From the IMG/VR virus record IMGVR_UViG_3300025128_000069, positions 1-48,902 of that record: 48,902 nt of DNA; one strand, 5' to 3'. This DNA is from a virus. Under the pieces are notes generated by a model. That model did not search any database. It was given only the letters and a program-made list of their open reading frames with translations, and had not been told where the DNA came from. Numbering within the stretch: the stretch's first letter is position 1; every line of letters starts with the position of its first letter. Made by a program: the position numbers and the translations under genes. Shown here in pieces: positions 3,524 through 40,587 of the stretch.

Positions 3524-3524
3524 C

Positions 3525-4035: not shown

Positions 4036-4037
4036 GA

Positions 4038-4620: not shown

Positions 4621-4628
4621 AACAACTC

Positions 4629-5894
4629 CTATGTAGCTGGGATTAATCTTTGTGCATACTCATAGGCTTCTTTATCGCCTAGATTTCTTTTTATTTCTAA
4701 GTACTTAGATGCTTCGTCAACTAATTGTTGATCAACTGGCTGAACTGGAAGGTTCAATTGCATTTTTCTTAAATCAGCAGGCATAGATGCAAAAGCTCCT
4801 AAACCTTTACCCTCTGCTCTAACTGTTTTCATGGGTTCTCTCAGCATTATAGTTTTAGGTATTGTAGTATCAAATGTAAATACTTCTGCTCCTGGTGCTT
4901 TGGATATTTTTGTGTCATATGATGGGTGTATACTAGGTGTCATACCTGATTTAATGTCTGTAAATCTACCACCCATACCTAGTTGATCTGCGTCTAATAA
5001 ACCTGGATTTGATGTAGCAATTCTAATTTTACCTATGTCTGGTGCTCCTAACTTCTGTAGTACATCTTTGTCGAATTGTTCAACTAACGCTACTCTTGTC
5101 GTTCCAGGCAATTTTCTAAAATATGTAGCAAATTCATCAATATTGTTGAGATTTGGTATATCTTTAAATGGTTGTGATACTTTATCTTTTTTTCTAAATG
5201 TTTGATTTTTAATGATTTTTGTCATTTCATTAAGATTTTTCTTTGTGTTTGGCTTTACTCTTAATGATTCAATAATTACATTTGCAGTATCTAAAGAAAA
5301 GTCACCAGACCTTTCACCCATAGTTGTTGTCATGCCTACTGGCTTTCCACCCATTTGCTCAACTGTTTGTAATTTATCATCTAATTTTTTTAATAAACTC
5401 TGCATAGATGCCCAACCTTGATCTGAATCATCCATAAATTGTATTCCCCCATGCGTTCTTATTGGGTTCTCAAATTTAAGATCATCTATACCATAAATGA
5501 TAACATCTCTACTTGTTCTATCGCCTACTAAGGGCACTATGGTTTTTCCTTGTAGCATTGATGCATCTGTAGCTAGTGTTGGACTTTTTTGCAAAGCTCC
5601 AACTCCAAAATTTAATCTGTAATCTTTTAGTGGGTCTCTGACTAATCCAGTATATTGTCTTTGAAATGGTGGAAAATTTTTCTTAGTCATATCAATAGCT
5701 CTTGTTTTGTTGCCAAGAGCATCTAATATGTCACTACCAGTCATTTCAAATCTTGGTAATGCACCAAATTCTTTTTTTAGTTGGTCGCTAGTCGCAATAT
5801 TTCCTAAAGCTCCAAGCTCATTACTGCTAAATAATGGCTTAAAGTTATCTGTAAGAAACTTTTTAAGAAATGGTTTAATTGGAACAGAAGCCAT
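4629..5894 (-). CDS. Large late protein, possibly polyvalent-protein-like
   Basis: 421 aa, soluble and mixed alpha/beta. Notable blocks are GVGALQKSP (about 97-105), LQGKTIVPLVGDRTSRDVIIYG (about 114-135), THGGIQFMDDSDQGWASM (about 148-165) and a C-terminal helical part (DQQLVDEASKYLEIKRNLGD). The HGG..FM....GWAS arrangement recalls accessory domains of phage polyvalent proteins, but I cannot name a family. It lies between basic mini-genes and shares the short Gly/Ala/Leu motif (ELGALGN) seen in other proteins here. Likely packaged with, or acting after, DNA entry; inferred. Confidence 0.7.
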   Translation of the reverse strand: MASVPIKPFLKKFLTDNFKPLFSSNELGALGNIATSDQLKKEFGALPRFEMTGSDILDALGNKTRAIDMTKKNFPPFQRQYTGLVRDPLKDYRLNFGVGALQKSPTLATDASMLQGKTIVPLVGDRTSRDVIIYGIDDLKFENPIRTHGGIQFMDDSDQGWASMQSLLKKLDDKLQTVEQMGGKPVGMTTTMGERSGDFSLDTANVIIESLRVKPNTKKNLNEMTKIIKNQTFRKKDKVSQPFKDIPNLNNIDEFATYFRKLPGTTRVALVEQFDKDVLQKLGAPDIGKIRIATSNPGLLDADQLGMGGRFTDIKSGMTPSIHPSYDTKISKAPGAEVFTFDTTIPKTIMLREPMKTVRAEGKGLGAFASMPADLRKMQLNLPVQPVDQQLVDEASKYLEIKRNLGDKEAYEYAQRLIPAT

Positions 5895-6029
5895 TTATGC
5901 CATCTTAGATTTAGTCTTTTTCTTTTTAAGATTAGCTAGTTTTTTAAAATCAGCACCAGTCAACTTGTTTCTTGGCTTTGCTACGTTAGCTATCTTCATT
6001 TGTTTTTTTGAGTATACTTTTCCTGGCAT
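5895..6029 (-). CDS. 44-aa basic protein
   Basis: Starts MPGKVYSKKQMKIANVAKPR and ends KKTKSKMA. Fully compact between neighbours, 2 bases after the upstream stop and directly before the downstream ATG. Lys-rich like the mini-genes at 3.5-4.6 kb. Function unknown. Confidence 0.6.
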   Translation of the reverse strand: MPGKVYSKKQMKIANVAKPRNKLTGADFKKLANLKKKKTKSKMA

Positions 6030-6031
6030 AA

Positions 6032-6316
6032 TTACATCCCCACCTTTGGTGACCCATGACCTAGTATCTCATCCATGACACCACGCATATCGCCACTATC
6101 TACTTTCATTACTTTGACTTTCATATCGCCATCCATATGCTCTTCTTCCATCTCTTCTTCTTCATCTGGAAGAACCATACCTTGATAACATAATAATAGA
6201 AAGTTAACTAGCTGATCTGGCGTTAACTCCAATCCTGGCGAATCGTGAGAAAACCCCATTTTTTCCATGAATAGTTCAGCATTTTCATCCATGTTTTCTA
6301 CATTAATATCAGCCAT
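6032..6316 (-). CDS. Acidic helical protein, unknown
   Basis: 94 aa, acidic (DEEEEMEEEHMDGDMKV) and Met-rich, beginning MADINVENMDENAELFMEKM. ELTPDQLVNFLLLCYQGM forms a hydrophobic helix in the middle. Its start overlaps the end of the 350-aa gene by 8 bases. It lies close to the basic mini-genes, so it could act as a charge partner, but that is speculation. Confidence 0.65.
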   Translation of the reverse strand: MADINVENMDENAELFMEKMGFSHDSPGLELTPDQLVNFLLLCYQGMVLPDEEEEMEEEHMDGDMKVKVMKVDSGDMRGVMDEILGHGSPKVGM

Positions 6317-20311: not shown

Positions 20312-20863
20312 ATGACTAAATATACTAAAGATCAACTAGAACTTAAATCTTACATCGAAAAGCTAAATAAAAAACACATGGATAAGGTTAGAGCTAATAC
20401 AGACCCTAACATCATGTATTGTACTGTTCCAGAGGTTGTACCATTTTCTGAGCTAGATAAATTTGCTGAGAATGGCATTGTATCAGTCCTTGATTATAAA
20501 AAAGATCAATGTGTTATGTACATTTCTGAATTTGGTAAATCTGCTACTGGGTCTAGAGTAAGAATTGATCCTAATGAGCATACATTAGAAGAACTAGAGG
20601 AAATGGAAAAATATTGGATAGAGCAGTCCAATATAGCTCAAGAAGAAGAGTACAACAGAAAAGCTCAAAATGTTTCTAACTTAGCAAAAAGAATTAAAGA
20701 AACTTGTAAGCTAGGTGCAAAAGACTACAGAACTGCTATCAAGTGGATACTAGAAGCAGATGAGCTTGAAGAGGACAAATCGTATCAAGGTGACCAATTA
20801 TGTTGGGAATTTGACATACCTTTTAAACATAAAAAATTATTTCAACTAGCGAGGGTAGCATAA
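20312..20863 (+). CDS. Early protein, unknown
   Basis: 183 aa. N-terminal helices (TKDQLELKSYIEKLNKKHMD), a beta region (NGIVSVLDYKKDQCVMYIS), and a C-terminal helical region (LGAKDYRTAIKWILEADELE) ending in CWEFDIPFKHKKLFQLARVA. It begins the P3 operon and is TAATG-coupled to DUF932, so the two probably work together. GGAG before ATG. No family recognised. Confidence 0.7.
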   Translation: MTKYTKDQLELKSYIEKLNKKHMDKVRANTDPNIMYCTVPEVVPFSELDKFAENGIVSVLDYKKDQCVMYISEFGKSATGSRVRIDPNEHTLEELEEMEKYWIEQSNIAQEEEYNRKAQNVSNLAKRIKETCKLGAKDYRTAIKWILEADELEEDKSYQGDQLCWEFDIPFKHKKLFQLARVA

Positions 20864-21777
20864 TGTTAGATACTAAATTACAAGATGCGTTACAAGACGT
20901 ATCATTTAAAATCGATGTGAGGGATATTCAAGGTATCCCTTCACACATGGGAAGAAAAATTGTACGCCTAGATAATTTAGGTGCTCAAGATGGTGATCCT
21001 CTAGCGATAGTAGGGTCACGATATAAGCCAATTCATCATGTAGATGCTTTTGGTGGTGCTCTAGAAGCTATGAAAAGTGGTGGCTTAGACTTCTCAAATA
21101 ACGAAATAACTGTAAACACTTACGAAAATGGTGCTATGGCTAAGATGGAATTATTACTTCCAGCACATCATGTACAAGTAGGTGATCACGATTTGTATCT
21201 TAAATTTGTAGCTAGAAATAGTTACAACGCCAAATGGAAGTTTCAATCTTTCTTTGGATGGATGAATGAAGTTTGTTTTAATACTTTGGTAAGTGGTCAG
21301 AAGATTGCCTATACTGCCAATAGACACACTACACATTTCAACGTAGATGCATCTAACAAGAAGATACAAAATGCAGTTACTGCTATCACAGACGAAACAG
21401 AGAGCTTTAAGAAGTGGTGGGATACTAAAGTAGAAGATGAGCAAGTTATTGACTTATTCAAAACTACTATAGCTAAAAGCCAAGCCAATGATATCAAGAT
21501 TGCTAGTGGTCAATCTGACACTAATAAAAAGCAATTATATCATTTGATGGGTTTATATGACGCTGAAGTAGCACAAATACATGGAAGGGGTGATTATGGC
21601 AGAAATGGTGCTAAAGGCTCTCTATGGTGTGCATATCAGTCTGCAACTGCATGGTCTACCCATCTTGGAGATGTAAAGTCTAATAGCACTAATAATCATA
21701 TTGTTCAGCAACGTAGACAAAACGATGTAAGAAGTATGATCAATAGTAAGAAATGGAAAGAGCTAGAGGTAGCATAA
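20863..21777 (+). CDS. DUF932 family protein
   Basis: 304 aa. IVGSRYKPIHHVDAFGGALE (about 49-68), MELLLPAHHVQVGDHDLYLK (about 91-110), FGWMNEVCFNTLVSGQK (about 130-146) and a C-terminal region around LWCAYQSATAWSTHL (about 253-267). This order matches the DUF932 / TIGR03299 phage-plasmid family. Members are often expressed early or from mobile elements, and the molecular role is unsettled. It ends just before a strong terminator. Confidence 0.85.
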   Translation: MLDTKLQDALQDVSFKIDVRDIQGIPSHMGRKIVRLDNLGAQDGDPLAIVGSRYKPIHHVDAFGGALEAMKSGGLDFSNNEITVNTYENGAMAKMELLLPAHHVQVGDHDLYLKFVARNSYNAKWKFQSFFGWMNEVCFNTLVSGQKIAYTANRHTTHFNVDASNKKIQNAVTAITDETESFKKWWDTKVEDEQVIDLFKTTIAKSQANDIKIASGQSDTNKKQLYHLMGLYDAEVAQIHGRGDYGRNGAKGSLWCAYQSATAWSTHLGDVKSNSTNNHIVQQRRQNDVRSMINSKKWKELEVA

Positions 21778-21781
21778 TATT

Positions 21782-21806
21782 AGGGAGCTTTATGCTCCCT
21801 TTTAAT
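21782..21806 (+). terminator. Rho-independent terminator after DUF932
   Basis: GGGAGC (21783-21788), loop TTTAT, GCTCCC (21794-21799), then TTTTAATTTT. A perfect 6-bp GC-rich stem and U-rich tail, 5 bases after the DUF932 stop. The next gene's ribosome site AGGAGG begins at 21810. Confidence 0.85.
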
Positions 21807-21820
21807 TTTAGGAGGTACTT

Positions 21821-22966
21821 ATGGAAGATTTATATGATTTTAAAAATACTGTATTGACTAGTGAGGTTGAGCTTTCTGATATAGACAAAGAGATATTTAA
21901 GAACTTTGACTTTACATTTGATGGCAAGACTGAATTTACTATTCCACATTTCTCAAAAGTAGAAGAGGATTTTTCTATTGGCGTTATATATGGATCAAGT
22001 GGTAGTGGTAAGTCATCTATACTGAAACAGTATGGGAATGAAGAAGAGCTAGTGTGGGATAATAACAAAAGTATAGCGTCACACTTTGATTCTGTAGAGG
22101 ATGCCATAGAAAGACTTGGTGCAGTTGGATTGAATACAGTTCCTACTTGGGCAAAGCCTAGAAAGGTTTTATCTAATGGAGAAGGCTTTAGATGCGATTT
22201 AGCTAGACGTTTAGGTAGTAACATTGTCATAGATGAGTTTACGTCTGTGGTAAACAGAGATGTAGCTAAATCTTGTTCACTATCTTTGTATAAGTATGTC
22301 AAACGCAAAAACCTTAAAAACATTGTATTGGCAACTTGCCACGATGACATATTAGAATGGCTGCAGCCAGATTGGGTCTTTAACACTGATGCAAAGAAGT
22401 TTGCGTCAAGGGGGTTAGTTCGGCAACCCATTGAAGTTAGAATTATCAAAGGGAGCAGAAAATATTGGGAGTTATTTAAAAAGCATCACTATCTAACAGA
22501 AGAACTGCCTGCGTCTGCACAATGTTATTTGGCAGTTTGGGGTAATAGAATTATTGGATTTGCGTCTAGTATGTCACTTCCTGGATGGACACCACCTCTT
22601 TATGAAGGAGACAAAAGACTTAAATGGCGTGAAGCTAGGACTGTAGTTCTTCCTGACTTTCAAGGACTTGGCATAGGTACTAGGATATCTGACGCAGTTG
22701 GTGATATTATGCTAGAGCAAAAGGTAAGATATTATTCTAAAACTTCACATATAAGAATGGGTGAGTACAGAGAAAAGTCACCACTATGGAGAGCTACTGT
22801 AAGTAATCTCAAAGACAGAAGCAGTGACACACATGACCATAAGAAACGCCTTATACCTTTAGCAAGAGATAGGATATGCTATTCACATGAATACATTGGT
22901 GAAAACAATAAATCTTACGATCCTAAGTATAATCGCCCAGATGATAATCAAATAAGTTTGTTCTAA
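21821..22966 (+). CDS. ABC-ATPase fused to GNAT acyltransferase
   Basis: 381 aa, two enzymes in one chain. Residues about 50-190 are an ABC-type ATPase: Walker A GSSGSGKS (58-65), signature-like LSNGE (117-121), Walker B NIVIDEF (134-140) with Asp138 and Glu139, and the switch His174 in TCHDD. It has no membrane segments, so it is not a transporter. Residues about 204-381 are a GNAT domain: HHYL (222-225), WGNRIIGF, then CoA-loop QGLGIGT (281-287), KTSHIRMG, YREKSPLW and CYSHEYIG near the end. The start has the strongest ribosome site of the early block (AGGAGG). It has its own paralogue next door. ABC-GNAT fusions with HHYL occur in some bacteria and phages; the substrate (protein, nucleobase or tRNA) is unknown. 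Confidence 0.85.
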   Translation: MEDLYDFKNTVLTSEVELSDIDKEIFKNFDFTFDGKTEFTIPHFSKVEEDFSIGVIYGSSGSGKSSILKQYGNEEELVWDNNKSIASHFDSVEDAIERLGAVGLNTVPTWAKPRKVLSNGEGFRCDLARRLGSNIVIDEFTSVVNRDVAKSCSLSLYKYVKRKNLKNIVLATCHDDILEWLQPDWVFNTDAKKFASRGLVRQPIEVRIIKGSRKYWELFKKHHYLTEELPASAQCYLAVWGNRIIGFASSMSLPGWTPPLYEGDKRLKWREARTVVLPDFQGLGIGTRISDAVGDIMLEQKVRYYSKTSHIRMGEYREKSPLWRATVSNLKDRSSDTHDHKKRLIPLARDRICYSHEYIGENNKSYDPKYNRPDDNQISLF

Positions 22967-23568
22967 TGCAATACGAATATCATCTAGATCAAAGTAAATT
23001 TCTATCTACAAAATTTGTAAAGCCAAAAATAAATATTAAAATTATTAATGGTGATAGAAAACTTTGGTCTATATTTAAAAGGCATCATTATCTAAGTGAA
23101 GAATTACCATTAGCTACAAGATGTTTCTATGCTTTATGGGGTAATAATATTATAGGATTTAGTGCTACAATAAGTTTTCCAGGAAAAACACCACCTTTGT
23201 ATGAAGGTGATATTAGAAAAAAATGGAGAGAATGCAGAACAGTTTTAATCCCAGACTTTCAAGGATTAGGTGTAGGCACTCGATTTTCAGATGCCATAGC
23301 TGATTTACATATAGAGCAAGGTTATAGATACTTTAGCAAAACCTCACATATGAGAATGGGTTTGTATAGGGAAAAATCTCCACTATGGAAGGCTACGTCA
23401 GCCAATTTACTTGATAGAAGTAAAAGCACCAATGGTAAAGGTTATATAAATCATCACACTATAGAAAGAGATAGATTGTGTTATTCTCACGAATATATTG
23501 GAAAAGATAAAAAGTCTTACAATCCTATCTACAACGCTGAAGAAAATAATCAGATAAGTATATTTTAA
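22966..23568 (+). CDS. Stand-alone GNAT paralogue of the fusion's C-terminal half
   Basis: 200 aa, aligning over almost its full length with residues 204-381 of the preceding protein. HHYL (40-43), TPPLYEGD, the CoA loop QGLGVGT (99-105), KTSHMRMG, YREKSPLW and CYSHEYIG are shared, and both end NQIS(L/I)F. The pair arose by tandem duplication. The ATG overlaps the upstream TAA. It lacks an ATPase half. Probable acyltransferase forming a heteromer or acting on a related substrate; inference. Confidence 0.85.
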   Translation: MQYEYHLDQSKFLSTKFVKPKINIKIINGDRKLWSIFKRHHYLSEELPLATRCFYALWGNNIIGFSATISFPGKTPPLYEGDIRKKWRECRTVLIPDFQGLGVGTRFSDAIADLHIEQGYRYFSKTSHMRMGLYREKSPLWKATSANLLDRSKSTNGKGYINHHTIERDRLCYSHEYIGKDKKSYNPIYNAEENNQISIF

Positions 23569-29244: not shown

Positions 29245-29679
29245 TTATTTCTCCATATAAGTTGATCCTATTTTTACTAGTCCTAATCTTTCGTAAAACT
29301 TATCTTTACGATCAAGATCGCCAGAAAAAACATGACCTAATCTAACTTTTAGTTTAGCTTCTTTTGCGATTTTTATAAAGTCAATACATAAATTTTTTGC
29401 GATTGATGATTTTCTATGTTCTGGGAATACATAAAACCAAGCATCAGACATATACATTTCGTCAGACCACCAATCATTTACTGCCATCCCAGCTATTGAT
29501 CCAACTACTCTGTTATTTTCTATTGCCACTAACACTAACCCTTTGTGCATCAAATCATTAATTTTATTTACTAACTTTTGAGTATGTATCTTAGGTACTT
29601 CTACTTCAGTTTCTTTATGCATCTCATTTAACATAAAAATAATAGCAGAAATGTCTAAAACATTTGCTCGTCTTATCAT
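29245..29679 (-). CDS. GNAT-family acetyltransferase
   Basis: 144 aa, one GNAT domain. IRRANVLDISAIIFMLNEMH, VLVAIENNRVVGSIAGMAV (about 49-67), MYMSDAWFYVFPEHRKSSIA (about 75-94), and FYERLGLVKIGSTYMEK at the end. The CoA loop reads RKSSIA rather than the usual (R/Q)xxGxG/A, so CoA binding may be altered. It lies inside the late structural operon and is unrelated in sequence to the HHYL-type GNATs at 21.8-23.6 kb. Target unknown; single GNATs are common in marine phage late clusters. Confidence 0.85.
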   Translation of the reverse strand: MIRRANVLDISAIIFMLNEMHKETEVEVPKIHTQKLVNKINDLMHKGLVLVAIENNRVVGSIAGMAVNDWWSDEMYMSDAWFYVFPEHRKSSIAKNLCIDFIKIAKEAKLKVRLGHVFSGDLDRKDKFYERLGLVKIGSTYMEK

Positions 29680-30008
29680 TACATATTGCCTAATGCACCC
29701 ATATCTTTAGGCATATCATCCATCATTTGATCTTCTGGCATAGCATCGCCTACACCACTTTGCTCAACTGTCTCTATAATTTGTTGTAACTCTGGTAATA
29801 ATTTAATTAAAACCCCAGCAACGTCAGGTGTAATTGCTTTATCTAACATTTGCAATTCTTCTGGTGACATTTCCATAAGTCTTGACATAAGAACAGTACC
29901 TACTGCTTTTGATGGTTGCAAAATCTTTTGTCCAGCCTCTTGCATACCCATCTGCATTTGACTTTCCATAGGTGGTTGATCACCCATCATTCCCATTTCT
30001 TCAGCCAT
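29679..30008 (-). CDS. Met/Gln-rich small virion protein
   Basis: 109 aa from ATG 30008, with AGGAG 8 bases upstream; the longer form from 30077 lies inside the upstream gene and is rejected. Starts MAEEMGMMGDQPPMES, then helical (LMSRLMEMSPEELQMLDKAI), ending DMGALGNM. Low-complexity Met/Gln/Pro and the Gly/Ala/Leu end link it to neighbouring virion proteins. Function unknown. Confidence 0.7.
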   Translation of the reverse strand: MAEEMGMMGDQPPMESQMQMGMQEAGQKILQPSKAVGTVLMSRLMEMSPEELQMLDKAITPDVAGVLIKLLPELQQIIETVEQSGVGDAMPEDQMMDDMPKDMGALGNM

Positions 30009-30010
30009 AA

Positions 30011-31384
30011 TTAAATCTCCTTTTTTCTGTACAATATTGACCAATCTGTTTCTTTGCAAAATGTACCTACAGTCCAACAGATAGGCTCTAGGATTTTTCT
30101 ATATAGCTTACCTAAATAATCTGGCTTGTCTCTTTCACCATATATATAAGCTATTTCGTTTGCTCTGTGCCCAGCGATATGTGCCCACAAACCAACAAAT
30201 CTACCTTTTCTCATTTGCTTCACCATCCATACTGCCCATACATGATACCCAGCAACATGGGTTGGTGTTAAGTAATCTCTTGTAAATTTATAATCTAATA
30301 TAACTTGTTTACGATCCATAATACCTTGTCTCATAAGTTCATTACATATAACTCTACCTACAAAACCACCAACTACGCCACCTATTATAGTTGCAAAGGG
30401 TGCTAGTGGCGTTGCAGTCAATAAAGCAGTTGTAGCATATTGTATTATTCCAGCGTCTGCGGCTGATACTGCGGCGTCATCTACGTCTTGCCCTGCGGCT
30501 ACTCTTCCAACAAAGTTTACTCCTGCTCCAATACCACTTGCGTATAAATTGCTTTGACCAGCATCTGTCATTGGGTTAAATGCATCTGCCATACTAGTCT
30601 CTGTTGGCACAGTTGTAACTGGTTTTAATGCCTGTGCACTATCTTGAGTTGCATCAAACCCTTCTGGAAAACCAGTAGCCTCATCACCAAAATTAACATT
30701 TCTTGCTTTACCAAAATCATTTGTAGGCACATAATCACCAGACGTTCCTATTGGCAATAAAGTACCAGTTTCTAACCCTCTTTCAAATTGTGCAAGGTTT
30801 CCAGTCGCTTCAGCAACTTGCCTATTTGCTAATTCTGGAACAAAATTGTCTGTTAACCCTGAAGCCTGCAAAATATTTTTGGAACTATCTGGTAAATTTG
30901 CAAAAGAAGTACTTCTAGCCAATTCTAGTGGAGTTGATTGACCAGTTCTCATAAGTCCACTAAATCCTTTTTCTAAAGTGCCTTGTCCAACTGCATATGG
31001 GTTTGTTAGTCCTCTACCAATGTTTGCACCTAGTGTTTGACCTATTTGTCCAGCAGACCCTTCTAAGGCTCTCTGTGCCATAATCTCTTGTGGGGTCATA
31101 AAACCTGGAGGTAATTGCTCAAATTTTTTATATTTTTCAAGCATATCTTCGTCAAAAGCATCTCCTGGAGTGTAGCTTCTTTGTCCAGTTTGTATCTTCT
31201 TTGCCCATTCAAATACTGGAAATGCTTGTGTTCCATACAATCTTTGTATGTCTTGATTACTCATAGTTGGTGTTTGAGACTGTGTTTGATATACATTATA
31301 AACAATGGGATCAACTCCTTGATTTTCTTTTTCATCAAGGTTTAATAAGGGTAGTCCAGTTAATGCACCTATTTCTGCCATCAT
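30011..31384 (-). CDS. Virion protein with C-terminal Cys/Trp domain (paralogue of 6309-7361)
   Basis: 457 aa. Starts MMAEIGALTGLPLLNLDEKE; the second ATG is better spaced from GGAG. A disordered middle precedes a hydrophobic glycine-rich segment (about 309-340, ending PFATIIGGVVGGFVGRVI). The C-terminal domain (about 343-445), starting VICNELMRQGIMDRKQVI and including GYHVWAVWMVKQMRKG and EPICWTVGTF, aligns with the end of the 350-aa protein. Two paralogous carriers in one virion suggest related roles, perhaps as tail or internal proteins. Confidence 0.75.
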   Translation of the reverse strand: MMAEIGALTGLPLLNLDEKENQGVDPIVYNVYQTQSQTPTMSNQDIQRLYGTQAFPVFEWAKKIQTGQRSYTPGDAFDEDMLEKYKKFEQLPPGFMTPQEIMAQRALEGSAGQIGQTLGANIGRGLTNPYAVGQGTLEKGFSGLMRTGQSTPLELARSTSFANLPDSSKNILQASGLTDNFVPELANRQVAEATGNLAQFERGLETGTLLPIGTSGDYVPTNDFGKARNVNFGDEATGFPEGFDATQDSAQALKPVTTVPTETSMADAFNPMTDAGQSNLYASGIGAGVNFVGRVAAGQDVDDAAVSAADAGIIQYATTALLTATPLAPFATIIGGVVGGFVGRVICNELMRQGIMDRKQVILDYKFTRDYLTPTHVAGYHVWAVWMVKQMRKGRFVGLWAHIAGHRANEIAYIYGERDKPDYLGKLYRKILEPICWTVGTFCKETDWSILYRKKEI

Positions 31385-31390
31385 CTTCTC

Positions 31391-31714
31391 CTATGTAATC
31401 TCTAAGTAACTCGCTACAACATGAAGCCTATTAGCACTTGCGGCAGTTACCTTTAAAATTTCACTTTCCATTATAATTAATGGCTGACTTAATAATTCTT
31501 TTGTGCTCAATGCACCAACCTCTTCATTCTTATATACACTAAAAACGGCAGCAGCACTATCTGTAATTGTAACTGTTATTGTATCTGCACTACCACTATC
31601 ATTGGATACCAACAAAGACTTGATAATAGCTTGAGTTGCTGATGGTGCAGTGTATAATGTAGTTACATCTGTGTTTGCTAAATCTACCTTACTATTTTTG
31701 TAATTATTAGCCAT
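31391..31714 (-). CDS. Small beta-rich virion protein
   Basis: 107 aa, MANNYKNSKVDLANTDVTTL. Alternating strands with Ala/Ser/Thr (SLLVSNDSGSADTITVTITD, LIIMESEILKVTAASANRLH). This form is common for small head-tail or decoration proteins in marine phages. It overlaps the 54-aa gene by 8 bases. Confidence 0.7.
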   Translation of the reverse strand: MANNYKNSKVDLANTDVTTLYTAPSATQAIIKSLLVSNDSGSADTITVTITDSAAAVFSVYKNEEVGALSTKELLSQPLIIMESEILKVTAASANRLHVVASYLEIT

Positions 31715-31871
31715 TAAACCAACTCTTAGCTTCTGCGTTTTCTTCTGCTTGTTTTGTAGTCGTTGATGTACTTAACTCGTTTGTACGTTGTTGTAATTCA
31801 AGCGTAGATATTAATTGTCTTGCCCATCTGACGTAGTTTTCCATAGTTGTAGGGGATGGTAATCTAATCAT
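31707..31871 (-). CDS. 54-aa helical protein
   Basis: Starts MIRLPSPTTMENYVRWARQL and continues as a polar helix. The ATG is ATGA-coupled to the tail protein's stop, and its end overlaps the next ATG. Strong coupling on both sides supports a real gene. Probably a small structural or assembly protein; unknown. Confidence 0.65.
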   Translation of the reverse strand: MIRLPSPTTMENYVRWARQLISTLELQQRTNELSTSTTTKQAEENAEAKSWFNG

Positions 31872-33754
31872 CTCATGCCATCTTTTCTTGCATTCACTCT
31901 AAAATCACCTAACAACCATTCATCTTCTGTACCAGAGCTAAAAAATCTTACTGCCATTTGTCTGCCTTTAGCTCTAGTGCTTATCTTTTCAGTTGTTGCA
32001 GTTACAGTAAAAGCACCCTTAGTTATCTCTGTGGCAGTTGGGTATTTTCTAGTTTTTATTTGTAAAAATAAATTTGTATTTGCACCCATAGTTGCATCTG
32101 GAATAATTTTATCTACCATAAATTGGTTCTCTCCAGTTGTATCTAATTCAACATCTCCAGTTTCAATGTGTGCTGACATTGCTGATCCATTGTCACTTGT
32201 TCCAGTTTCGTGATTGTACAATCTACCATCTGAATCAAATGCAAAAGGTACATTCCTAAAACCTCCAGCATCATGCCAAACATTTCTGCTCAATGATCCT
32301 ATTGACCAAGCTCCATCTTGGTAATTATAAGTTACATAACTATCTGGCTCAGGGTTTGCAGTTCCCAATGAATTATCTGTACTTACATAAAACCATGATA
32401 TTTCATTAAATTTTTTATTATGTGCGGCATAAGTTTTATCAATATATGCTGGTTGCAATCTATCAAATACAAAGTATTGCACAGAACATGGAAGCTCTTT
32501 CACAATGCCATCATAAACAAAGAAGTTGCTTTTACCTATCCAATATACATCACCATCTACGTTAGCCGCTCCATGTATAGCAACGCCACCACAATTTACT
32601 GCTAATAATCTAAATGAAAATGTAAAAGGCGGCCCGACAAATGTCATACCATATGCGGCTTCATCTGTTTGTATAAAGGTTTCATCTTTAGTTGGTAACA
32701 TTGTAATTATCTTTGTGCCTACTTCTAGACGTTGATCACCCGCAGTGTTTGTAGATGTTGGTGTAAATTTTGTAAAATCTTCTTGATCTGAAAATCTAAC
32801 AAGCATTGGATCAATTACGCTTGATCCTAAAGGTGTAGCACCTCCAGCTATTAAATGTCTATCTGGAAACGATACAGTAACACATCTAACTTTTGTAGGC
32901 ACACCACTTGCTCCAGTTTCTGCTGAAACTAGTTCTGCTCTTGTAGTCTCACCTTCTGACGTATCAAAATAATATATTTGACCATTTCTATTGTTTGCTA
33001 TTAAATCTTCACCCCATAGACTTAAAGACCATTGAGTTGCTTCTAATGATACAGTAATTGACGTACCATCTCTTGGAGTACCCCAAGTTCCTTCACCCCA
33101 AGTTCCAACACCCCAACCAAGTGCTGGATCAGAACTTTGAGCACCTATATTTTCTGCACTACCTATCAAATATGCTATGTCGATAGTTGTGCCACCTCCA
33201 GTTGCATTGCCAGTTGCCGCACTTCCAGCTACAAATGTATATGAGTTATCATCTACTTTTGTTATTTGATACCCTTGTAGTCTATTTAATGTATCAGCAG
33301 TTATCCCACCAGTCGCAGTCGCACTATTAATTACAATAAAATCGCCAGTCGATGCACCATGACTATTATCTGTGACTGTGACTAATGTGTTTCCACTAGT
33401 AACTACTAATGGGTTAGATAAATTTGCTGTTGTTTTTCTTAAAGGTGTTATATCATAAAACAAATTATCTTTAAGTATATACAAATGATTATGTGTGCCA
33501 ATTGCTATTCTATCTGCACCATCGCTATTAGCTCTCCACGCTAGTATCCTTTTAACTTTTCCTGTCACTGCTTCTATTGATGTGTCACCATTAAATTGAT
33601 AAGTTTCTTGTTGCCATCCACCTATTTTAGTTGGGTAGCCATTCCTAAATCTAACTAAATTACCATCTGTATAAAACGGCCCGTTCTTTCCAGACGCATA
33701 CTCTGTAATATCTTTTACAATTCCTGGTTTAAATTTTAATGGCACTAATGGCAT
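31868..33754 (-). CDS. Tail stabilisation / hub protein (P22 gp10-like)
   Basis: 628 aa. Begins MPLVPLKFKPGIVKDITEYA and contains FYTDGNLVRFRNGYPTKIGG (about 27-46), GTHNHLYILKDN, WGVGTWGEGTWGTPRD (about 210-225), NRNGQIYYFDTS and VTVSFPDRHLIAGGA-like strands. The PGxxxD.T.Y...G.W.DGN.VRFR.G.P.KIGGW start is the usual mark of large podovirus tail-hub or stabilisation proteins. Mostly beta, probably a propeller. It seals the portal and receives the tail adaptors encoded upstream. Confidence 0.85.
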   Translation of the reverse strand: MPLVPLKFKPGIVKDITEYASGKNGPFYTDGNLVRFRNGYPTKIGGWQQETYQFNGDTSIEAVTGKVKRILAWRANSDGADRIAIGTHNHLYILKDNLFYDITPLRKTTANLSNPLVVTSGNTLVTVTDNSHGASTGDFIVINSATATGGITADTLNRLQGYQITKVDDNSYTFVAGSAATGNATGGGTTIDIAYLIGSAENIGAQSSDPALGWGVGTWGEGTWGTPRDGTSITVSLEATQWSLSLWGEDLIANNRNGQIYYFDTSEGETTRAELVSAETGASGVPTKVRCVTVSFPDRHLIAGGATPLGSSVIDPMLVRFSDQEDFTKFTPTSTNTAGDQRLEVGTKIITMLPTKDETFIQTDEAAYGMTFVGPPFTFSFRLLAVNCGGVAIHGAANVDGDVYWIGKSNFFVYDGIVKELPCSVQYFVFDRLQPAYIDKTYAAHNKKFNEISWFYVSTDNSLGTANPEPDSYVTYNYQDGAWSIGSLSRNVWHDAGGFRNVPFAFDSDGRLYNHETGTSDNGSAMSAHIETGDVELDTTGENQFMVDKIIPDATMGANTNLFLQIKTRKYPTATEITKGAFTVTATTEKISTRAKGRQMAVRFFSSGTEDEWLLGDFRVNARKDGMR

Positions 33755-34197
33755 TAAGCTACATTCCTCATTCTCTCACAAAGTCTTTCTGCTCTGTTTG
33801 GTACTTGCCTTGCCCATTTACTATCTTCCATTTGTATTGCGGCTTCAATCCAATTCGCATCCATCACGGCTTCATACATCTTACGAAATTTGGTCAATCT
33901 TGGGCGACCCAGATTAAACATCATATTTGCAATTATTCTCTGTGCATCTTCTGGAAGATCATCAAAAAATTCGTAAAGTTTTCTACATTCGTCTATAGTT
34001 ACATCTAAGTCTTTTGCAAAAAGCTCATCAACTCTTTCTACAGAAACTGGATCACCTACCTCTAATTCATTTTCTGGGTCTGTAGCTCTGCACAAATGAC
34101 CCACGCCGCAAGTCTTATATCCAAGATGATCATTATAAATTTCGTAAATTACTCCCTCATCTGCTTTTATTTCTTCTTTTAATTTATCTAAATTCAT
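33754..34197 (-). CDS. Endolysin, T4-type lysozyme (GH24)
   Basis: 147 aa. Catalytic E14, D23 and T29 sit in IKADEGVIYEIYNDHLGYKT, with the same spacing as E11/D20/T26 of T4 lysozyme. NMMFNLGRPRLTKFRKMYEA and ARQVPNRAERLCERMRN give the C-terminal lobe with the conserved R..R motif. No signal peptide, so export relies on the holin. It cleaves peptidoglycan at the end of infection. It follows the 33-aa gene and the holin in the lysis cassette. Confidence 0.95.
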   Translation of the reverse strand: MNLDKLKEEIKADEGVIYEIYNDHLGYKTCGVGHLCRATDPENELEVGDPVSVERVDELFAKDLDVTIDECRKLYEFFDDLPEDAQRIIANMMFNLGRPRLTKFRKMYEAVMDANWIEAAIQMEDSKWARQVPNRAERLCERMRNVA

Positions 34198-34299
34198 CTA
34201 TCTACCTTGTCTTTTTTTTACACATTCTACATGACGATAATAAAAATAATTACCAATTTTATTAAAAAATTTTGATAATTTCAAATAATTCCACATCAT
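34198..34299 (-). CDS. 33-aa lysis-cassette peptide
   Basis: MMWNYLKLSKFFNKIGNYFY followed by a short basic tail ending KKRQGR. ATGA overlap with the holin stop, ending directly before the lysozyme ATG. Amphipathic, aromatic and basic, it could associate with the membrane. The exact fit between holin and lysozyme supports translation. Function unknown. Confidence 0.65.
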   Translation of the reverse strand: MMWNYLKLSKFFNKIGNYFYYRHVECVKKRQGR

Positions 34300-34703
34300 T
34301 TTTTCATATTCTCTCTAGCTATACCTTTTGTTTTTTCAAAACTTCTCATACCGCCAAGTCCTAATAATGAAAGCGTTAAGGTCATAAGTTCGCCAGTATT
34401 AAGTTCTGGAAGCAAAACCTCTGGAGCCCAGACACTTGTTGCCCATTCTGCAATAGGCATAATAAAAAATTGTGTAAACAAACCTAATGCACATATCCAC
34501 ATAATCGCTGGTCGTGCTCCAGCTACAAATAAACTAGGGTGTTTGGCTTGTTCTACGTTAGCTTGTATTTGCCCTTTAGCTAGTTCCTGGGCGTGGCGTT
34601 CTGCAAGTGTAGCCAAATCATGTGACAACTTATTTTTAACATCTTTGTCCTCAATGAATTTGCCAAGAAGATTAGAAACAGGACCTATTAATGCAGTTAA
34701 CAT
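34296..34703 (-). CDS. Holin, gene-transfer-agent-like 3TM family
   Basis: 135 aa. A polar N-terminal helix (IGPVSNLLGKFIEDKDVKNK), then RPAIMWICALGLFTQFFIMP (about 61-80) and ELMTLTLSLLGLGGMRSFEK (about 105-124) as membrane segments. The layout matches the Phage_holin_3TM / GTA holin type, which occurs in alphaproteobacterial phages and gene-transfer agents. It forms inner-membrane holes to release the endolysin encoded downstream. Start TAATG-linked to the EF-hand gene. Confidence 0.8.
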   Translation of the reverse strand: MLTALIGPVSNLLGKFIEDKDVKNKLSHDLATLAERHAQELAKGQIQANVEQAKHPSLFVAGARPAIMWICALGLFTQFFIMPIAEWATSVWAPEVLLPELNTGELMTLTLSLLGLGGMRSFEKTKGIARENMKK

Positions 34704-35026
34704 TATTTTTCACCTTTTTTTGCCATTTGATTAAATCCTATAAAACTACCTATAACACCCATATTACTTAACACCCATATTTCTGCAATACCTGATAAAT
34801 GGTCTATTCTTTCCATAGGGAGTAATGGTGTCATTAATACAACTATAAACAAAGTTACAGATAAAGCACTGAACCAAACTAAATATCTTTGCTGATCTTC
34901 TTTTTTGTCTCTGTTTTCTAAAAGAATAAGTTTTTCTCGCATTTCAAATTCTTTATCGGAAACTATCCCATCACCATTTTTATCAAGTGTTGCAAATTTT
35001 GAGTTTTTTTCTAATTTTTTTGTCAT
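34703..35026 (-). CDS. EF-hand, two-helix membrane protein
   Basis: 107 aa. Residues 15-26 DKNGDGIVSDKE form a canonical EF-hand loop (Asp15, Asn17, Asp19, Ser23, Glu26). A helix leads to two membrane segments (about 50-66 YLVWFSALSVTLFIVVL and 82-97 IWVLSNMGVIGSFIGF). It precedes the holin directly. The loop predicts Ca2+ or other cation binding; a pinholin, antiholin or cation-sensing role is an inference. Confidence 0.8.
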   Translation of the reverse strand: MTKKLEKNSKFATLDKNGDGIVSDKEFEMREKLILLENRDKKEDQQRYLVWFSALSVTLFIVVLMTPLLPMERIDHLSGIAEIWVLSNMGVIGSFIGFNQMAKKGEK

Positions 35027-35229
35027 TGTAATATCTCATTCAAACCAAAAACTTCTAATAACATAAAAGTAAAAAACAACATTAAAATACCACCAGCTAT
35101 AAGTTTACCACTAAAGTTTGTTGAGCCTATTTTTATAGCTACAAATTCATTGCCAAGTATTCTAAGGGAAAGTTCAAAAGAATTGTTACTTAAATCTAAA
35201 TTGATTATTTTCTTTTTTTCTTCAGTCAT
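35023..35229 (-). CDS. Small one-helix membrane protein
   Basis: 68 aa from ATG 35229, which overlaps the upstream TGA (ATGA); the longer 35277 start would lie inside the previous gene. MTEEKKKIINLDLSNNSFEL, then a membrane helix LIAGGILMLFFTFMLLEVF. Likely part of the lysis/membrane group; function unknown. Confidence 0.65.
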   Translation of the reverse strand: MTEEKKKIINLDLSNNSFELSLRILGNEFVAIKIGSTNFSGKLIAGGILMLFFTFMLLEVFGLNEILQ

Positions 35230-35429
35230 CAATAAACCTTTACTTTTTTTGGGTCTACTTTTGGTATTAGTTTGCATATACAGTCATAAACTTGTTCTTC
35301 GTTATTTTTCATATATGTTTGGTTACTTAATTTTTTTTCATACATTAAACAATCATTTACATTCCTAAAATATATTGCTCCTTCTGCAACAAAACCATTT
35401 AATGTACAGTACAACATGAAAGCAGTCAT
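35229..35429 (-). CDS. Small Cys-rich protein with N-terminal hydrophobic start
   Basis: 66 aa, MTAFMLYCTLNGFVAEGAIY. Cys at about 8, 27, 50 and 52 (VYDCICKL). A secreted or lipid-anchored small protein is possible, but no clear cleavage site is seen. It is ATGA-coupled to the gene after it. Confidence 0.6.
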   Translation of the reverse strand: MTAFMLYCTLNGFVAEGAIYFRNVNDCLMYEKKLSNQTYMKNNEEQVYDCICKLIPKVDPKKVKVY

Positions 35430-35432
35430 ACA

Positions 35433-35606
35433 TTACCTAACCAACAAACCTATAAGCATAACAATAGCAGTACCAGATGTGCCAATCATAATATGCTCCA
35501 TTCTTTTTATTCTAAGTATAGTTTCTTTCCATCTTTCATCACTGACTGCTAAATGCTTTTCAAGTTTTACATGAACATCTTGTAGTGTTGGTTTAGCCAT
35601 TTTCAT
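35433..35606 (-). CDS. Small XhlA-like coiled-coil/membrane protein
   Basis: 57 aa. The N-terminal half is a polar helix (LQDVHVKLEKHLAVSDERWK), then a C-terminal membrane helix GTSGTAIVMLIGLLVR. This helix-then-anchor plan matches haemolysin XhlA/holin-helper proteins. ATGA overlap with the gene upstream at 35606. Together with the holin it could help lysis; inferred. Confidence 0.6.
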   Translation of the reverse strand: MKMAKPTLQDVHVKLEKHLAVSDERWKETILRIKRMEHIMIGTSGTAIVMLIGLLVR

Positions 35607-36157
35607 ACCTCATCAGGAAAATCATAAATAGGTGCTTTGCCAGTAGGTTGATTATCGCTATCTACTGGAGTATCAAACAATGCTATGAAAGCAGCTAAAT
35701 CTGAACAATCAGTAATCTTTTTTTCTATTGTTGCTGTTGCTGTCCTCACTGCTGATCTATATGTACTTATGTCAGATGGTATTGCAGTTGATGATTCTGC
35801 TTTTCTAGTAACATACCAATCTGTGTCTACAAGTTTATTGTTACCAGTTGCTTTAGTTTTTGCTATCCATCTTGTTTTAAGACCTGAATCTACTTTTTGT
35901 TTGCCAGTCAAAGGATCGATAACAGCTTTGCCATCTGCATCAACTACATTCACATCATCAAGTTTCTTTGCAACATCCTTTGCCCAGTAAAATCTATTGT
36001 CGTAAGTTTCTTCAACTGGGTCATCTTCCCAAACAAGTCCAGCAGACTTTTTTTCTGCATCTGTGAGGTTATTCCATTGACGAGGATATTTAGTGTTATT
36101 GTCACTAATCCATGATCTCCCTGTCTGTATGGTTCTACCATTGTGTTTCCAAGCCAT
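35603..36157 (-). CDS. Tail-associated protein, assembly-chaperone-like
   Basis: 184 aa. MAWKHNGRTIQTGRSWISDN, then a helical middle, then a C-terminal helix (STYRSAVRTATATIEKKITD) and IYDFPDEV end. The last part resembles the C-terminal domain of small tail-fibre assembly proteins. It lies just after the large LamG tail fibre, supporting a fibre-assembly role. AGGAG before ATG. Family assignment is uncertain. Confidence 0.65.
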   Translation of the reverse strand: MAWKHNGRTIQTGRSWISDNNTKYPRQWNNLTDAEKKSAGLVWEDDPVEETYDNRFYWAKDVAKKLDDVNVVDADGKAVIDPLTGKQKVDSGLKTRWIAKTKATGNNKLVDTDWYVTRKAESSTAIPSDISTYRSAVRTATATIEKKITDCSDLAAFIALFDTPVDSDNQPTGKAPIYDFPDEV

Positions 36158-36166
36158 TATTTTCTC

Positions 36167-38836
36167 CTATTCTGCATTTGCATATTTAAAAGGTTGTTCG
36201 GCAAATGCTATGTAAACAAATGTGTCCTCTTGATTAAATTCATCTGCATTATCTCTAAGTTTAATGCCATTACTTAAAAAATCAACAGACATAGTATTGC
36301 CACTTATGTCAGTTGTTCCATTTCCTCTTTCACCCTCTTTAGCAGTTTTATTAGCATAAAGAGGATTTGAAATATCACCATCAGTCATGCGATTTATGGT
36401 TTTTCTCACATTGTCGTAAATTACCCAAGAGGTAAAAGTACTTGTGTCACTTGCACATTTTATCATAATCCATGCAGGTTTAAAGCCTAGATGCACAAAA
36501 GTACCATCATCAGCAACATTTCCAGTATAACTGCCAAACTTTGAGTAGCCTTCTACCTCTGCAAAACAATAAGCTATATATGTTTTTCCAGTTTCATTGT
36601 ATTGGTATCTAGGTGGAGTAAATAAATTTGTTGTGAAACCAGTATCAGTTCTATGCCACCCTGCATTATTTGAAGCATTAGTTAGTTGTAAAAATAACTG
36701 ATAATTTAAATATGTTGTGTCAGGTTGATAACCTTGATGCCATACATTCCAATGAGGATAAGAACCTCCATCTAAATCTTTAACAATAACAAAGGTTGGC
36801 TTTACACCTAAACCATGAGCAATCGTTGGTGGTGTTCCACTTTCCCCTACATCTGATGAAATATCAGAAGTAAATTTGACTATGCTAAATGCAGCAGTTG
36901 TATTAACACTTATGGCAGTTGCATCTATTGTTCCCTGTGTTGGTGTAAAAGCAACTCCATCTTTAATAAAGTTACCACTTACATCTCCAATATCTCCTCC
37001 TGCTTTCCAATTCCAAGCCACATACGTTCCATTATTTGCATTGACTTGACCTGAACCTGCATTTGTTCCTTTTAATCTAAAACCATCTGCCAAAAATGCT
37101 GTAACACCTGCATCACTTTCTGTGTCTTCAGTACCAGTACCATCAGTTTGTAAATGTTTTAGCGGACCTCGTACACTATCTCGTACATTATGTGAAGCAT
37201 CTGCATCTCGTCTTTTTATCCAAAGCCAATCTGGCTGAAACCCTACACCTGATATATCTTGTGTCGCAGATGAACTAGAACCATTGCCTGTATAAAGAAC
37301 TGTACTCATATAGTCGGTTGCTTGTGAAGTGGAATTAGGACCGATTGTTGGTTCAGGTAGGTTAAATGTGCAAGGAGCTAAGAAACCACTAGGTACTGCA
37401 TAATAAAAATCACCAATACCATTCGCATCAGAGTTGCCTTGTGCAGTTTTTGCTCCTGCAAAAGAGCTATCTGTACCCCAATTGTACATTACTACTCTTG
37501 TTGCACCTGTTCCACCAGATTGAACACCACCTGCTTTCCAACCACCTTCTGATGAAGGTAAGTCTAAAGCCGTTATGTAACTATTATTTACTCCAAATTG
37601 TATTGTTTGATTATCTAAATCTAATTTAAATTGTATAATACTGCCTGCAGCTATTGCACCACCAGTTCCAGTTGCTGCAACTCCTTCTTTGTATGTGTTA
37701 CCATTATCAAGATATAAATTAATTCCACCTCCTGTGTTTAGGGTAAGCGTAGTAGAAAATGTATTTGGTAATCTTTGATGACCTTTTGCCAAAGTTACTG
37801 CTAAATAATTATTTCCTGTAGTAGAAACATATAGAGCTTCCCAGTAATATTTACCAGTTTGTGTAGCATTAAAAGTAAAATTTGAATTTACATTAGCATT
37901 TATAAAAGTAAATTTTGTAGCACCTTCTGAGAGAGTTCCCGGAGCATTGTGTACTACAAGTTCATTTGGACTAAGTGTAGGAAAGTTATTTTCTGGACAG
38001 TCCAGTTTTGCACAGTCATTTGCTGCTATACCACCAGATGTAAAATGATTATTATTGCCACTTGTATCTGCACCTATTGTGCTTGATGAAGCAGTACCTA
38101 CACCTGTGTTTTTAAACTGCAATCTAAAACCATTTGTACCATAAGTAACATTAGGCTCTTTTGGAATCCATATACCATTTTTAAATTCACCAAAATTAGA
38201 TGCTGCATATTGTGTTCCATCAACAAAATTAAATTCTGCTAAGTATCCCTCCAGATATCTTGTGGTGGTATCTATATTTCTTCCAATCCAATGTGGTGTT
38301 GCCTGATTTACATTGTATTCCCAATTTTGAGGAACTGCAGCATGATGCTGATTCATACTTGTGTAATCAAGTTGTACACCATTTACATAATATTTCACTC
38401 TGTTTGCTTCTGTTGCATCTGTAGTATCAAATGCAGCAACTACATGATACCAAGCTGATGGATCATTAAAACCTGTATTTGATTCTAAACTATAATCAAC
38501 AGTGCTACCAGAATCATAGTCATAATAAGTTAATTCATTTAAAGTATCAGTTGCTGCTCCTTGACCTTGACTACTGAAATTTAATGCAAACACACCACCA
38601 CCATCTGGCTCATCTGCATAGAATATAGCATTGTTTTGGTCATTAGCTTCAGAATGGAAAACTTGTGATGTTTTATACCAAAAGCTAATAGTGAATGTTC
38701 TTCTGTTACTTCCACTTGATGGAGTTCTATACAAGTATGCACCACTAGCTTTATCAAATCTCAATGATGTTGTAACAACACCCTTATAAATACCTGAAGG
38801 TGTTTCACCTGCACCATTTGCTTTTATCACACTCAT
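36167..38836 (-). CDS. Tail fibre with LamG domain, receptor-binding candidate
   Basis: 889 aa. Residues about 29-210 form a LamG/concanavalin-like domain (RRTFTISFWYKTSQVF, DPSAWYHVVAAFDTTDATEA, YYVNGVQL, HWIGRNIDTTTRYLEGYLAE, FNFVDGTQY). A second jelly-roll (about 325-480: GKYYWEALYVS, GSIIQFKLDLDNQTIQFGVN) is SPRY-like. The last third has GVGFQPDWLWIKRRDADASH, LGVKPTFVIVKDLDGG and LGFKPAWIMIKCASD repeats, all G(F/V)(Q/K)PxxxxIK. Probably the distal host-recognition protein. It is the largest gene here and is paired with the 434-aa fibre upstream. Confidence 0.85.
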   Translation of the reverse strand: MSVIKANGAGETPSGIYKGVVTTSLRFDKASGAYLYRTPSSGSNRRTFTISFWYKTSQVFHSEANDQNNAIFYADEPDGGGVFALNFSSQGQGAATDTLNELTYYDYDSGSTVDYSLESNTGFNDPSAWYHVVAAFDTTDATEANRVKYYVNGVQLDYTSMNQHHAAVPQNWEYNVNQATPHWIGRNIDTTTRYLEGYLAEFNFVDGTQYAASNFGEFKNGIWIPKEPNVTYGTNGFRLQFKNTGVGTASSSTIGADTSGNNNHFTSGGIAANDCAKLDCPENNFPTLSPNELVVHNAPGTLSEGATKFTFINANVNSNFTFNATQTGKYYWEALYVSTTGNNYLAVTLAKGHQRLPNTFSTTLTLNTGGGINLYLDNGNTYKEGVAATGTGGAIAAGSIIQFKLDLDNQTIQFGVNNSYITALDLPSSEGGWKAGGVQSGGTGATRVVMYNWGTDSSFAGAKTAQGNSDANGIGDFYYAVPSGFLAPCTFNLPEPTIGPNSTSQATDYMSTVLYTGNGSSSSATQDISGVGFQPDWLWIKRRDADASHNVRDSVRGPLKHLQTDGTGTEDTESDAGVTAFLADGFRLKGTNAGSGQVNANNGTYVAWNWKAGGDIGDVSGNFIKDGVAFTPTQGTIDATAISVNTTAAFSIVKFTSDISSDVGESGTPPTIAHGLGVKPTFVIVKDLDGGSYPHWNVWHQGYQPDTTYLNYQLFLQLTNASNNAGWHRTDTGFTTNLFTPPRYQYNETGKTYIAYCFAEVEGYSKFGSYTGNVADDGTFVHLGFKPAWIMIKCASDTSTFTSWVIYDNVRKTINRMTDGDISNPLYANKTAKEGERGNGTTDISGNTMSVDFLSNGIKLRDNADEFNQEDTFVYIAFAEQPFKYANAE

Positions 38837-38845
38837 ACCAAGTTC

Positions 38846-40150
38846 CTATGTAAGTATCGCTGAAGCTGAAACTAATATTGTATCATTACCACTTGCTGCA
38901 CTACAATAATATGATAAATGGTATGTGCCACTTGCACTAATTGTACTTAAAACATCTGCATTTATTGCTACATCAGCATGAGCAGTAATTGTATGATTAC
39001 TACCATTAACAAATTTTATGTTTCCAGATTGACCTGCTGCTGCATTTGTGAATGTTATTGCTAAATTACCACCACTTGTACAAATAAAATCATTTCCTAC
39101 TGCTAAATCAAAACTACCATCATTGTCTGTAGTAACATGACCTGATGCCCTACCAGCAACTGTAATATCATTATTAATTGCAAGAGAAACATTATCCTCT
39201 ACAGTCATAACTGCTGTGCCATCAAACTGTTGAAATATAATATCTTTTGCATCTGTAGCTGGTTTTATAACTGCATCACTTGAACTATTTGAAATAGTAA
39301 GTAAATTTACAGTATCATTTTGAAATTTAAAATCATCACCATCTGCATTTAATATTATATCACCTGCTACATCTAAAGTCAGATCACCAGACGATAAAGC
39401 TATAGTTGTGCCATCAATATTAAAATTATCAATATCTATCCCAGCATCAGCAGTAATTTTTCCAGTAGCTCCCATTGTACCAACAACTGCAATATTAGTT
39501 GCAGTCAGTTCAATAGTGTCTGTTGCTGCAATATCTAAAACTGTAGCACTTGCACCTTGAATAAACTGACTAGCATCATTAAAACAAAGTTTATTTGTAC
39601 TGTTTAAGGTAAGTCCAGTTCCATCAGTATGAGTTAAAGTTGTATCTGCATCAGCACCAAACGATACTACTGCACTATCACTTGTAAAACTTAAATCATC
39701 TTGTACTTTAAGATCAACTACACTTAACGATGCAAAAGCATCTACAACTGCTGCACCACTTCCAGCACCATCTAAATATAACACTTTACAATCGCCTGGT
39801 GGTATTGTTACATTTGCACCTGATCCTTGACTTATAATTATATTCTGTGATCCACTTGTTCCATTTTCTATAATATGGACTCTTTTTATTGTGTTGGGTG
39901 CAATAGTAATGGTACAAGCACTGTCTAGTGTTCCAGTATATTTAACGTACATAGACCTAACTGGGTCTGTTGCACCATCAGCTACTGTGCTTGTGTGCGT
40001 ATCTGCATTTGTTGTTATAGCTTCTGTGTCAAACCCTAGTGCTTCTGCTATTAATTCAAGGTTAGTATTAGTGGTTGTACCCCAAGTACCACTACCATCA
40101 CCAGTCGCTAATTCATTTAATCTGAGGTCATTTACATAGGTACTAGCCAT
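38846..40150 (-). CDS. Tail fibre / spike shaft protein
   Basis: 434 aa. MASTYVNDLRLNELATGDGS (a short head-like region), then a long repeat-rich beta shaft with Asn/Asp/Thr ladders (LTLDVAGDIILNADGDDFKF, ITVAGRASGHVTTDN). ATGDGSGTWGTTTNTNLEL at residues 15-33 is a common N-terminal motif of marine phage tail fibres. A trimeric beta-helix shaft is probable. It attaches the LamG fibre to the tail hub. Confidence 0.8.
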   Translation of the reverse strand: MASTYVNDLRLNELATGDGSGTWGTTTNTNLELIAEALGFDTEAITTNADTHTSTVADGATDPVRSMYVKYTGTLDSACTITIAPNTIKRVHIIENGTSGSQNIIISQGSGANVTIPPGDCKVLYLDGAGSGAAVVDAFASLSVVDLKVQDDLSFTSDSAVVSFGADADTTLTHTDGTGLTLNSTNKLCFNDASQFIQGASATVLDIAATDTIELTATNIAVVGTMGATGKITADAGIDIDNFNIDGTTIALSSGDLTLDVAGDIILNADGDDFKFQNDTVNLLTISNSSSDAVIKPATDAKDIIFQQFDGTAVMTVEDNVSLAINNDITVAGRASGHVTTDNDGSFDLAVGNDFICTSGGNLAITFTNAAAGQSGNIKFVNGSNHTITAHADVAINADVLSTISASGTYHLSYYCSAASGNDTILVSASAILT

Positions 40151-40161
40151 TTATTAAACTC

Positions 40162-40578: not shown

Positions 40579-40587
40579 ATTAACTCC

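Follow-up and report, generated by a model that had tools for sequence, protein, structure and literature searches.

We analysed a 48.9 kb viral record (IMG/VR IMGVR_UViG_3300025128_000069, positions 1 to 48,902, hereafter the window), whose genes include a terminase, an ERF recombinase, a primase/helicase and ejection genes like those of P22, and focus here on two adjoining genes of its plus strand. The first (21821..22966, +) encodes a 381-residue fusion of an ABC ATPase to a GNAT acyltransferase domain, and the second (22966..23568, +) a stand-alone GNAT of 200 residues; the two overlap by one base (TAATG), so that the final A of the first gene's stop codon is also the first base of the second gene. 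On balance, and with moderate confidence, we favour the view that the pair forms a DNA-base acylation module that docks on the replicative sliding clamp, acts in step with replication and counters restriction. A sequence-only reading had described the two genes as an ABC ATPase–GNAT fusion and a duplicate of its GNAT half, and both descriptions hold: the open reading frame contains the Walker A, LSNGE, Walker B, H174 and HHYL elements named there, and the second protein is 58% identical to residues 184–381 of the fusion, a similarity far beyond chance given its E-value of 7e-81.

All motifs expected of an ABC ATPase are intact in the fusion, and their key residues are invariant among 57 homologues. 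These are the Walker A (GSSGSGKS, residues 58–65; 21992..22015, +) with G58, S60, G63 and K64, the signature (LSNGE, residues 117–121; 22169..22183, +) with S118 and G120, the Walker B (IDE; 22223..22237, +) with the catalytic D138-E139, and the H-loop histidine H174 (22340..22342, +). The GNAT domain lies C-terminal to these (Pfam Acetyltransf_1, E 8e-6), and contains the HHYL motif (residues 222–225; 22484..22495, +), with H223 and Y224 invariant in the same set, and the acyl-coenzyme A (acyl-CoA) binding motif QGLGIG (residues 281–286; 22661..22678, +), of which Q281 and G282 are invariant and G284 and G286 nearly so. R273 and W323 are likewise invariant. The cores of both proteins are modelled with confidence by AlphaFold2, with a mean predicted local distance difference test score of 87 for the fusion and 85 for the stand-alone copy.

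The fusion itself is not new. It is a member of a widespread phage family, phrog_11143, which it matches across its whole length (E 1e-107, residues 13–364), and relatives are encoded in at least 559 stretches of viral contigs and at least 223 stretches of bacterial genomes. A sequence search of the PDB returned only P-loop/ABC matches and one weak GNAT match. The best relative in phage records is QAX98348.1 of Aeromonas phage AsFcp_2 (47.6% identity over 91%), which is the example given for a GNAT plus ABC ATPase predicted to perform an uncharacterised acyl modification of DNA bases (PMC7824862), a proposal which that paper traces to Iyer et al. 2013 (Aravind and colleagues). Since QAX98348.1 is the named example, the idea of DNA modification is thus an already published prediction.

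The stand-alone copy descends from a fusion that has lost its ABC domain, because it retains the end of that domain together with the linker and shares a clade-specific insertion, PPLYEGD, with the fusions of its clade. The remnant lies at its N-terminus (22966..23025, +), where residues 3–20 align with residues 186–203 of the fusion. We also considered an origin from an ancestral free GNAT, and rejected it on account of this remnant and of the way the copy nests with the fusions of its clade. Among about 200 loci, the pairing of a fusion with a free GNAT is found only in the clade consisting of the window and 5 other contigs. The tree recovers the copies as a monophyletic group (support 100/100) that is sister to the fusions of the window clade (98/94), a placement from which we conclude that the duplication is older than the clade, and that the copy was lost afterwards in several members. 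Alignments show the copy to have its own HHYL motif (residues 40–43; 23083..23094, +) and to keep every GNAT residue that is invariant in the family. Its ratio of nonsynonymous to synonymous substitution rates (dN/dS), calculated for phages with 76–81% identical copies and at near-saturated dS, is about 0.07–0.14, and this low value means that the copy is under constraint (purifying selection). The branches leading to the copies are longer than those of the fusions.

Both proteins end in a peptide resembling the known consensus for binding to the beta sliding clamp, QL[S/D]LF or more generally QxxLF, which is often found at the extreme C-terminus (PMC12309361, PMC4549789). The candidate motif of the fusion is QISLF (22949..22963, +), which fits the published consensus, and that of the copy is QISIF (23551..23565, +), a match to the loose form; of all open reading frames in the window only these two have a clamp-like C-terminus. 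The NQIS(L/I)F ends had been counted with the duplicated GNAT half. They are present in both proteins, but they lie outside the GNAT core, the conserved part of which stops at YSHEYIG in the fusion, and are thus an added tail, which falls in a low-confidence and probably flexible part of the AlphaFold2 model. In fusions of the window clade and of its sister groups, some 20 further residues follow this point, and these are variable save for a terminal QISLF, QQSLF, QMDLF, QQDLF, QMSLI or similar. Tails are also found on distant fusions, that of P12024S ending in NQISLF and that of L099 in EQLTLL (L-numbers, such as L001 or L013, are our labels for loci carrying ABC-GNAT or Mom relatives), and the motif therefore arose more than once. 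When considering the last 12 residues, the strict motif is found in 15 of 103 viral fusions compared to 1 of 1651 other genes from the same loci, figures that are counts and not probabilities because the sequences are related. A similar picture emerges for the Mom proteins, which end in QQVLF, QFGLF, QGVLF, QQLLF and the like, the loose form occurring in 62 of 83 distinct proteins in a sample drawn with a query that is itself tailed; these tails lie past PYPK, the point where Mu Mom ends. Neither a DnaN clamp nor a polymerase of the PolA, PolB or PolC families was detected in the window or in four relatives, as would be expected if the clamp of the host is used. The literature we searched contained no DNA-base acyltransferase with a C-terminal clamp motif.

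The link to Mom is also seen in gene order. In L013–L019, L028 and L036, where the fusion is about 90% identical to that of the window (at least 89% in the GNAT domain), the place of the copy directly 3′ of the fusion is taken by a 215-residue Mom-family protein, which matches the PF25680 profile from end to end (E 5e-38, compared to 2e-75 for Mu Mom itself). A relic of the first codons of the copy, AATACGAATATCATAAAGG, precedes this Mom gene, and the C-terminus of the L013 Mom protein, PKNNAIADSQFGLF, resembles that of the L007 copy, PKNNAVKDSQFGLF. The slot is empty in L020, L022, L024 and L027. A Mom-family gene is also present in CRP-902, the closest phage in culture, in which a search for an ABC-GNAT found none. 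A second exchange is found in temperate phages, where a ParB-like gene overlaps either an ABC-GNAT (Leptospira LE4, Pasteurella Pmp13) or, in the same arrangement, Mom (phiEf11). A ParB-like gene lies immediately upstream, at position -1, in 52 of 69 bacterial loci, which are mostly prophage, and a terminase lies downstream in 38; only 7 of 121 viral or phage loci have a ParB-like gene nearby, and this neighbour is common in prophage members and not defining in lytic ones. Of the evidence from gene context, the two exchanges between Mom and ABC-GNAT argue best for DNA modification by ABC-GNATs, and we consider DNA to be the likely substrate of the window pair. The suggestion of base acylation in the sequence-only reading is to this extent strengthened, by the Mom exchange and by the ParB and terminase neighbourhoods; the fold searches described below are neutral towards it.

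Since close relatives have no copy, or have Mom in its stead, the fusion can evidently work without it. This weakens the earlier suggestion that retention of the duplicate points to a two-subunit system, and we favour neither two different marks nor a single complex.

These observations suggest the following mechanism. The ABC domain of the fusion would be expected to form a head-to-tail dimer on ATP that clamps or probes DNA, making the acyltransferase ATP-gated, and in doing so would present the GNAT domain, loaded with acyl-CoA, to a DNA base. The copy, free of an ABC domain, could be a further acyltransferase that either partners the fusion or works at a site of its own. Through their terminal QIS(L/I)F both proteins would dock on DnaN, the beta sliding clamp of the host; judging from sequence, we consider the chances of this to be roughly even. 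By such docking new phage DNA would be modified at the fork, which suggests a coupling to replication. The outcome of base acylation would probably be resistance to host restriction. More tentatively, it is possible, though we think it doubtful, that in phages dependent on the host replisome unrelated DNA-acylating enzymes (the ABC-GNAT, its paralogue and Mom) are tethered to the host clamp by interchangeable C-terminal peptides, with hypermodification coupled to replication and two acyltransferases placing two marks.

Several findings weigh against this replication-coupled DNA modification. No homology to Mom could be detected, as the earlier reading had cautioned: the PF25680 profile matches neither the fusion (at E<=1) nor the copy (at E<=10), and comparison of the window GNAT to Mom with hhalign gives a probability of 0.3%, leaving only a short match by eye between W34, H41 and Y42, invariant in GNATs of the window type, and W14, H19 and Y20 of Mom. 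Profile comparison as a route to Mom homology was thus tried with a negative result. No ParB_N domain was found in the window or in four relatives. Most members of the ABC-GNAT family have no clamp-like tail, the copies of L006, L008 and L009 end in HPLLI, without the Q, and the Mom proteins of eight cultured phages (CRP-902, Riggi, JeffCo, LP-124, Alsa_1, Inception, WaterT and LP-114) are tailless, for which reason we rejected the notion that every Mom is tailed. L032 combines a tail, QMSLI, with a nearby PolA gene, so that a restriction of tails to phages without their own polymerase also fails as a rule. The phylogenetic non-independence of the motif counts and the tailed query behind the Mom sample count on the same side, as do the closest solved folds to the copy, which are those of GNATs acting on proteins and small molecules (GCN5, Naa60 and Ard1, at 8–17% identity).

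These folds, along with the phage GNAT precedent Rac (cited in PMC7824862), would fit a pair that acetylates a host protein, for instance a subunit of RNA polymerase, like Rac, or a ribosomal protein, with the ABC domain powering or gating the reaction. However, the structure search places the window GNAT among generic GNATs with no close relative, and thus neither supports nor refutes DNA acylation; matches at such low identity carry no information about substrate, and the Mom exchange, the ParB and terminase neighbourhoods and the clamp-like tails all favour DNA, making a protein substrate improbable. Acylation of RNA appears very improbable. It would follow the precedent of TmcA, in which an ATPase and a GNAT work together on nucleic acid to make N4-acetylcytidine in tRNA, and TmcA (PDB ID: 2zpa) is indeed among the fold matches of both proteins, ranking 48th with the fusion and 8th with the copy. 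These matches have poor coverage and 9–10% identity, though, and the ATPase of TmcA is not of the ABC type; the window has no tRNA gene and no recognised RNA-linked neighbour of the pair, and clamp-like tails would make no sense for an RNA target.

Two further alternatives accept part of the clamp-docked DNA modification proposed here. DNA modification could be right and QIS(L/I)F not a clamp motif, being instead a tail peculiar to certain lineages that has some other function or no function, which would explain its loss in the copies ending in HPLLI and its absence from most of the family, the case for clamp binding being drawn from sequence. Against this, Q, L/M and F/I, the residues diagnostic of the motif, recur independently in three or more lineages of fusions as well as in Mom proteins, the motif is rare in the control genes, and the phages appear to depend on the host replisome; we regard a tail of this kind as unlikely, though worth keeping in mind. 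It is quite improbable that recombination left the copy behind as an inactive or regulatory protein and not as a working enzyme. Its lack of an ABC domain, its absence or replacement in close relatives and its longer branches are what one would expect of such a leftover, but the retention of all family-invariant GNAT residues and the low dN/dS are not.

Comparison to known systems places the pair as a variant of a known and predicted one, in which the local tandem GNAT and the putative link to the clamp are new, and not as something categorically new. With the published ABC-GNAT (phrog_11143) the window fusion shares architecture, motifs and homology to QAX98348.1; the window clade adds the tandem free GNAT and the clamp-like tail, lacks the ParB neighbour, and uses a slot in common with Mom. 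Mom (PF25680; Mu Mom, PDB ID: 8bv8) is likewise of GNAT type, has by eye a similar N-terminal W...HY, occupies the same slot in close relatives and in many viral members bears the same kind of tail; it differs in that it lacks an ABC domain and that its sequence shows no homology to the window GNATs that could be detected, and Mu Mom has no tail. The reaction of Mom is the transfer of a methylcarbamoyl group to the N6 of adenine. TmcA, the tRNA(Met) cytidine acetyltransferase, resembles the fusion in joining an ATPase to a GNAT that acts on nucleic acid, and differs in the class of its ATPase, its RNA substrate and a fold match that is only weak. PolC and many transposases are tethered to the clamp by C-terminal QLxLF peptides, and the window pair has the same Q-x-S/D-L-F type at the extreme C-terminus; the known examples are polymerases and transposases, whereas the window proteins are predicted acyltransferases.

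The chemistry of ABC-GNATs matters beyond this phage, as members of the family occur in many prophages and in viral contigs by the hundred, and the exchange with Mom provides a context in which to expect DNA as its substrate. The clamp-like tails, if truly such, suggest a route by which base modifications other than methylation could be directed to phage DNA as it is synthesised. The minimal cassette is also tractable, because it belongs to a group of lytic roseophages for which both a relative (CRP-902) and a host are in culture. The window terminase (TerL) is 78% identical to those of the Roseobacter phages CRP-901 and CRP-902, and the host is thus probably a marine Rhodobacterales bacterium; a megablast search of phage records with window positions 30000–42000 found no relatives at the DNA level.

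Upstream of the fusion lies a gene for a 304-residue DUF932 protein (20863..21777, +; Pfam DUF932, E 8e-14), which adjoins the 5′ side of the fusion in 22 loci and is retained together with it throughout the clade; the window protein has no match in phage records. We regard this gene as a conserved neighbour and candidate context, outside the demonstrated system. A hairpin resembling an intrinsic terminator (21782..21800, +) sets the fusion and copy apart from it, and L006, L009, L020, L022 and L027 have a hairpin in the corresponding position. PADLOC and NCBIfam scans matched nothing specific.

Elsewhere in the window, a third, small GNAT of 144 residues (29245–29679, -), unrelated to the pair, lies amid structural genes and is probably the phrog_1249 match; gp35 of CRP-902 is annotated as a GNAT and has a similar position. 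A GroES-like co-chaperonin (Cpn10) is encoded at 47470–47877 (-), and CRP-902 has one too (gp61). Positions 2726–3580 (-) give a weak match to ART-PolyVal, the ADP-ribosyltransferase of polyvalent proteins (E 0.0017, under the curated cut-off).

Other loci offer further observations. ABC and GNAT are separate adjacent genes in L042, L044, L050, L054 and L001 (Streptococcus, Oenococcus, Lactococcus and Thomasclavelia phages), and their fusion is therefore not obligatory. In L222 two nearby Mom-family genes (3986–4642 and 5229–6152) both end in QxxL[IF], and the Mom core of the second protein (307 residues) is interrupted by a large insertion. In L047 (4855–5328) and L051 (4897–5514), from Porphyromonas and Pseudomonas phages, the gene immediately after the ABC-GNAT is annotated as phosphoribosylglycinamide formyltransferase, and its product could be the source of a formyl group or the enzyme that transfers it. 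Lastly, a trypsin-like protease gene recurs two to five genes upstream of the ABC-GNAT in L143 (2424–3485) and 22 other loci, mostly planctomycete.
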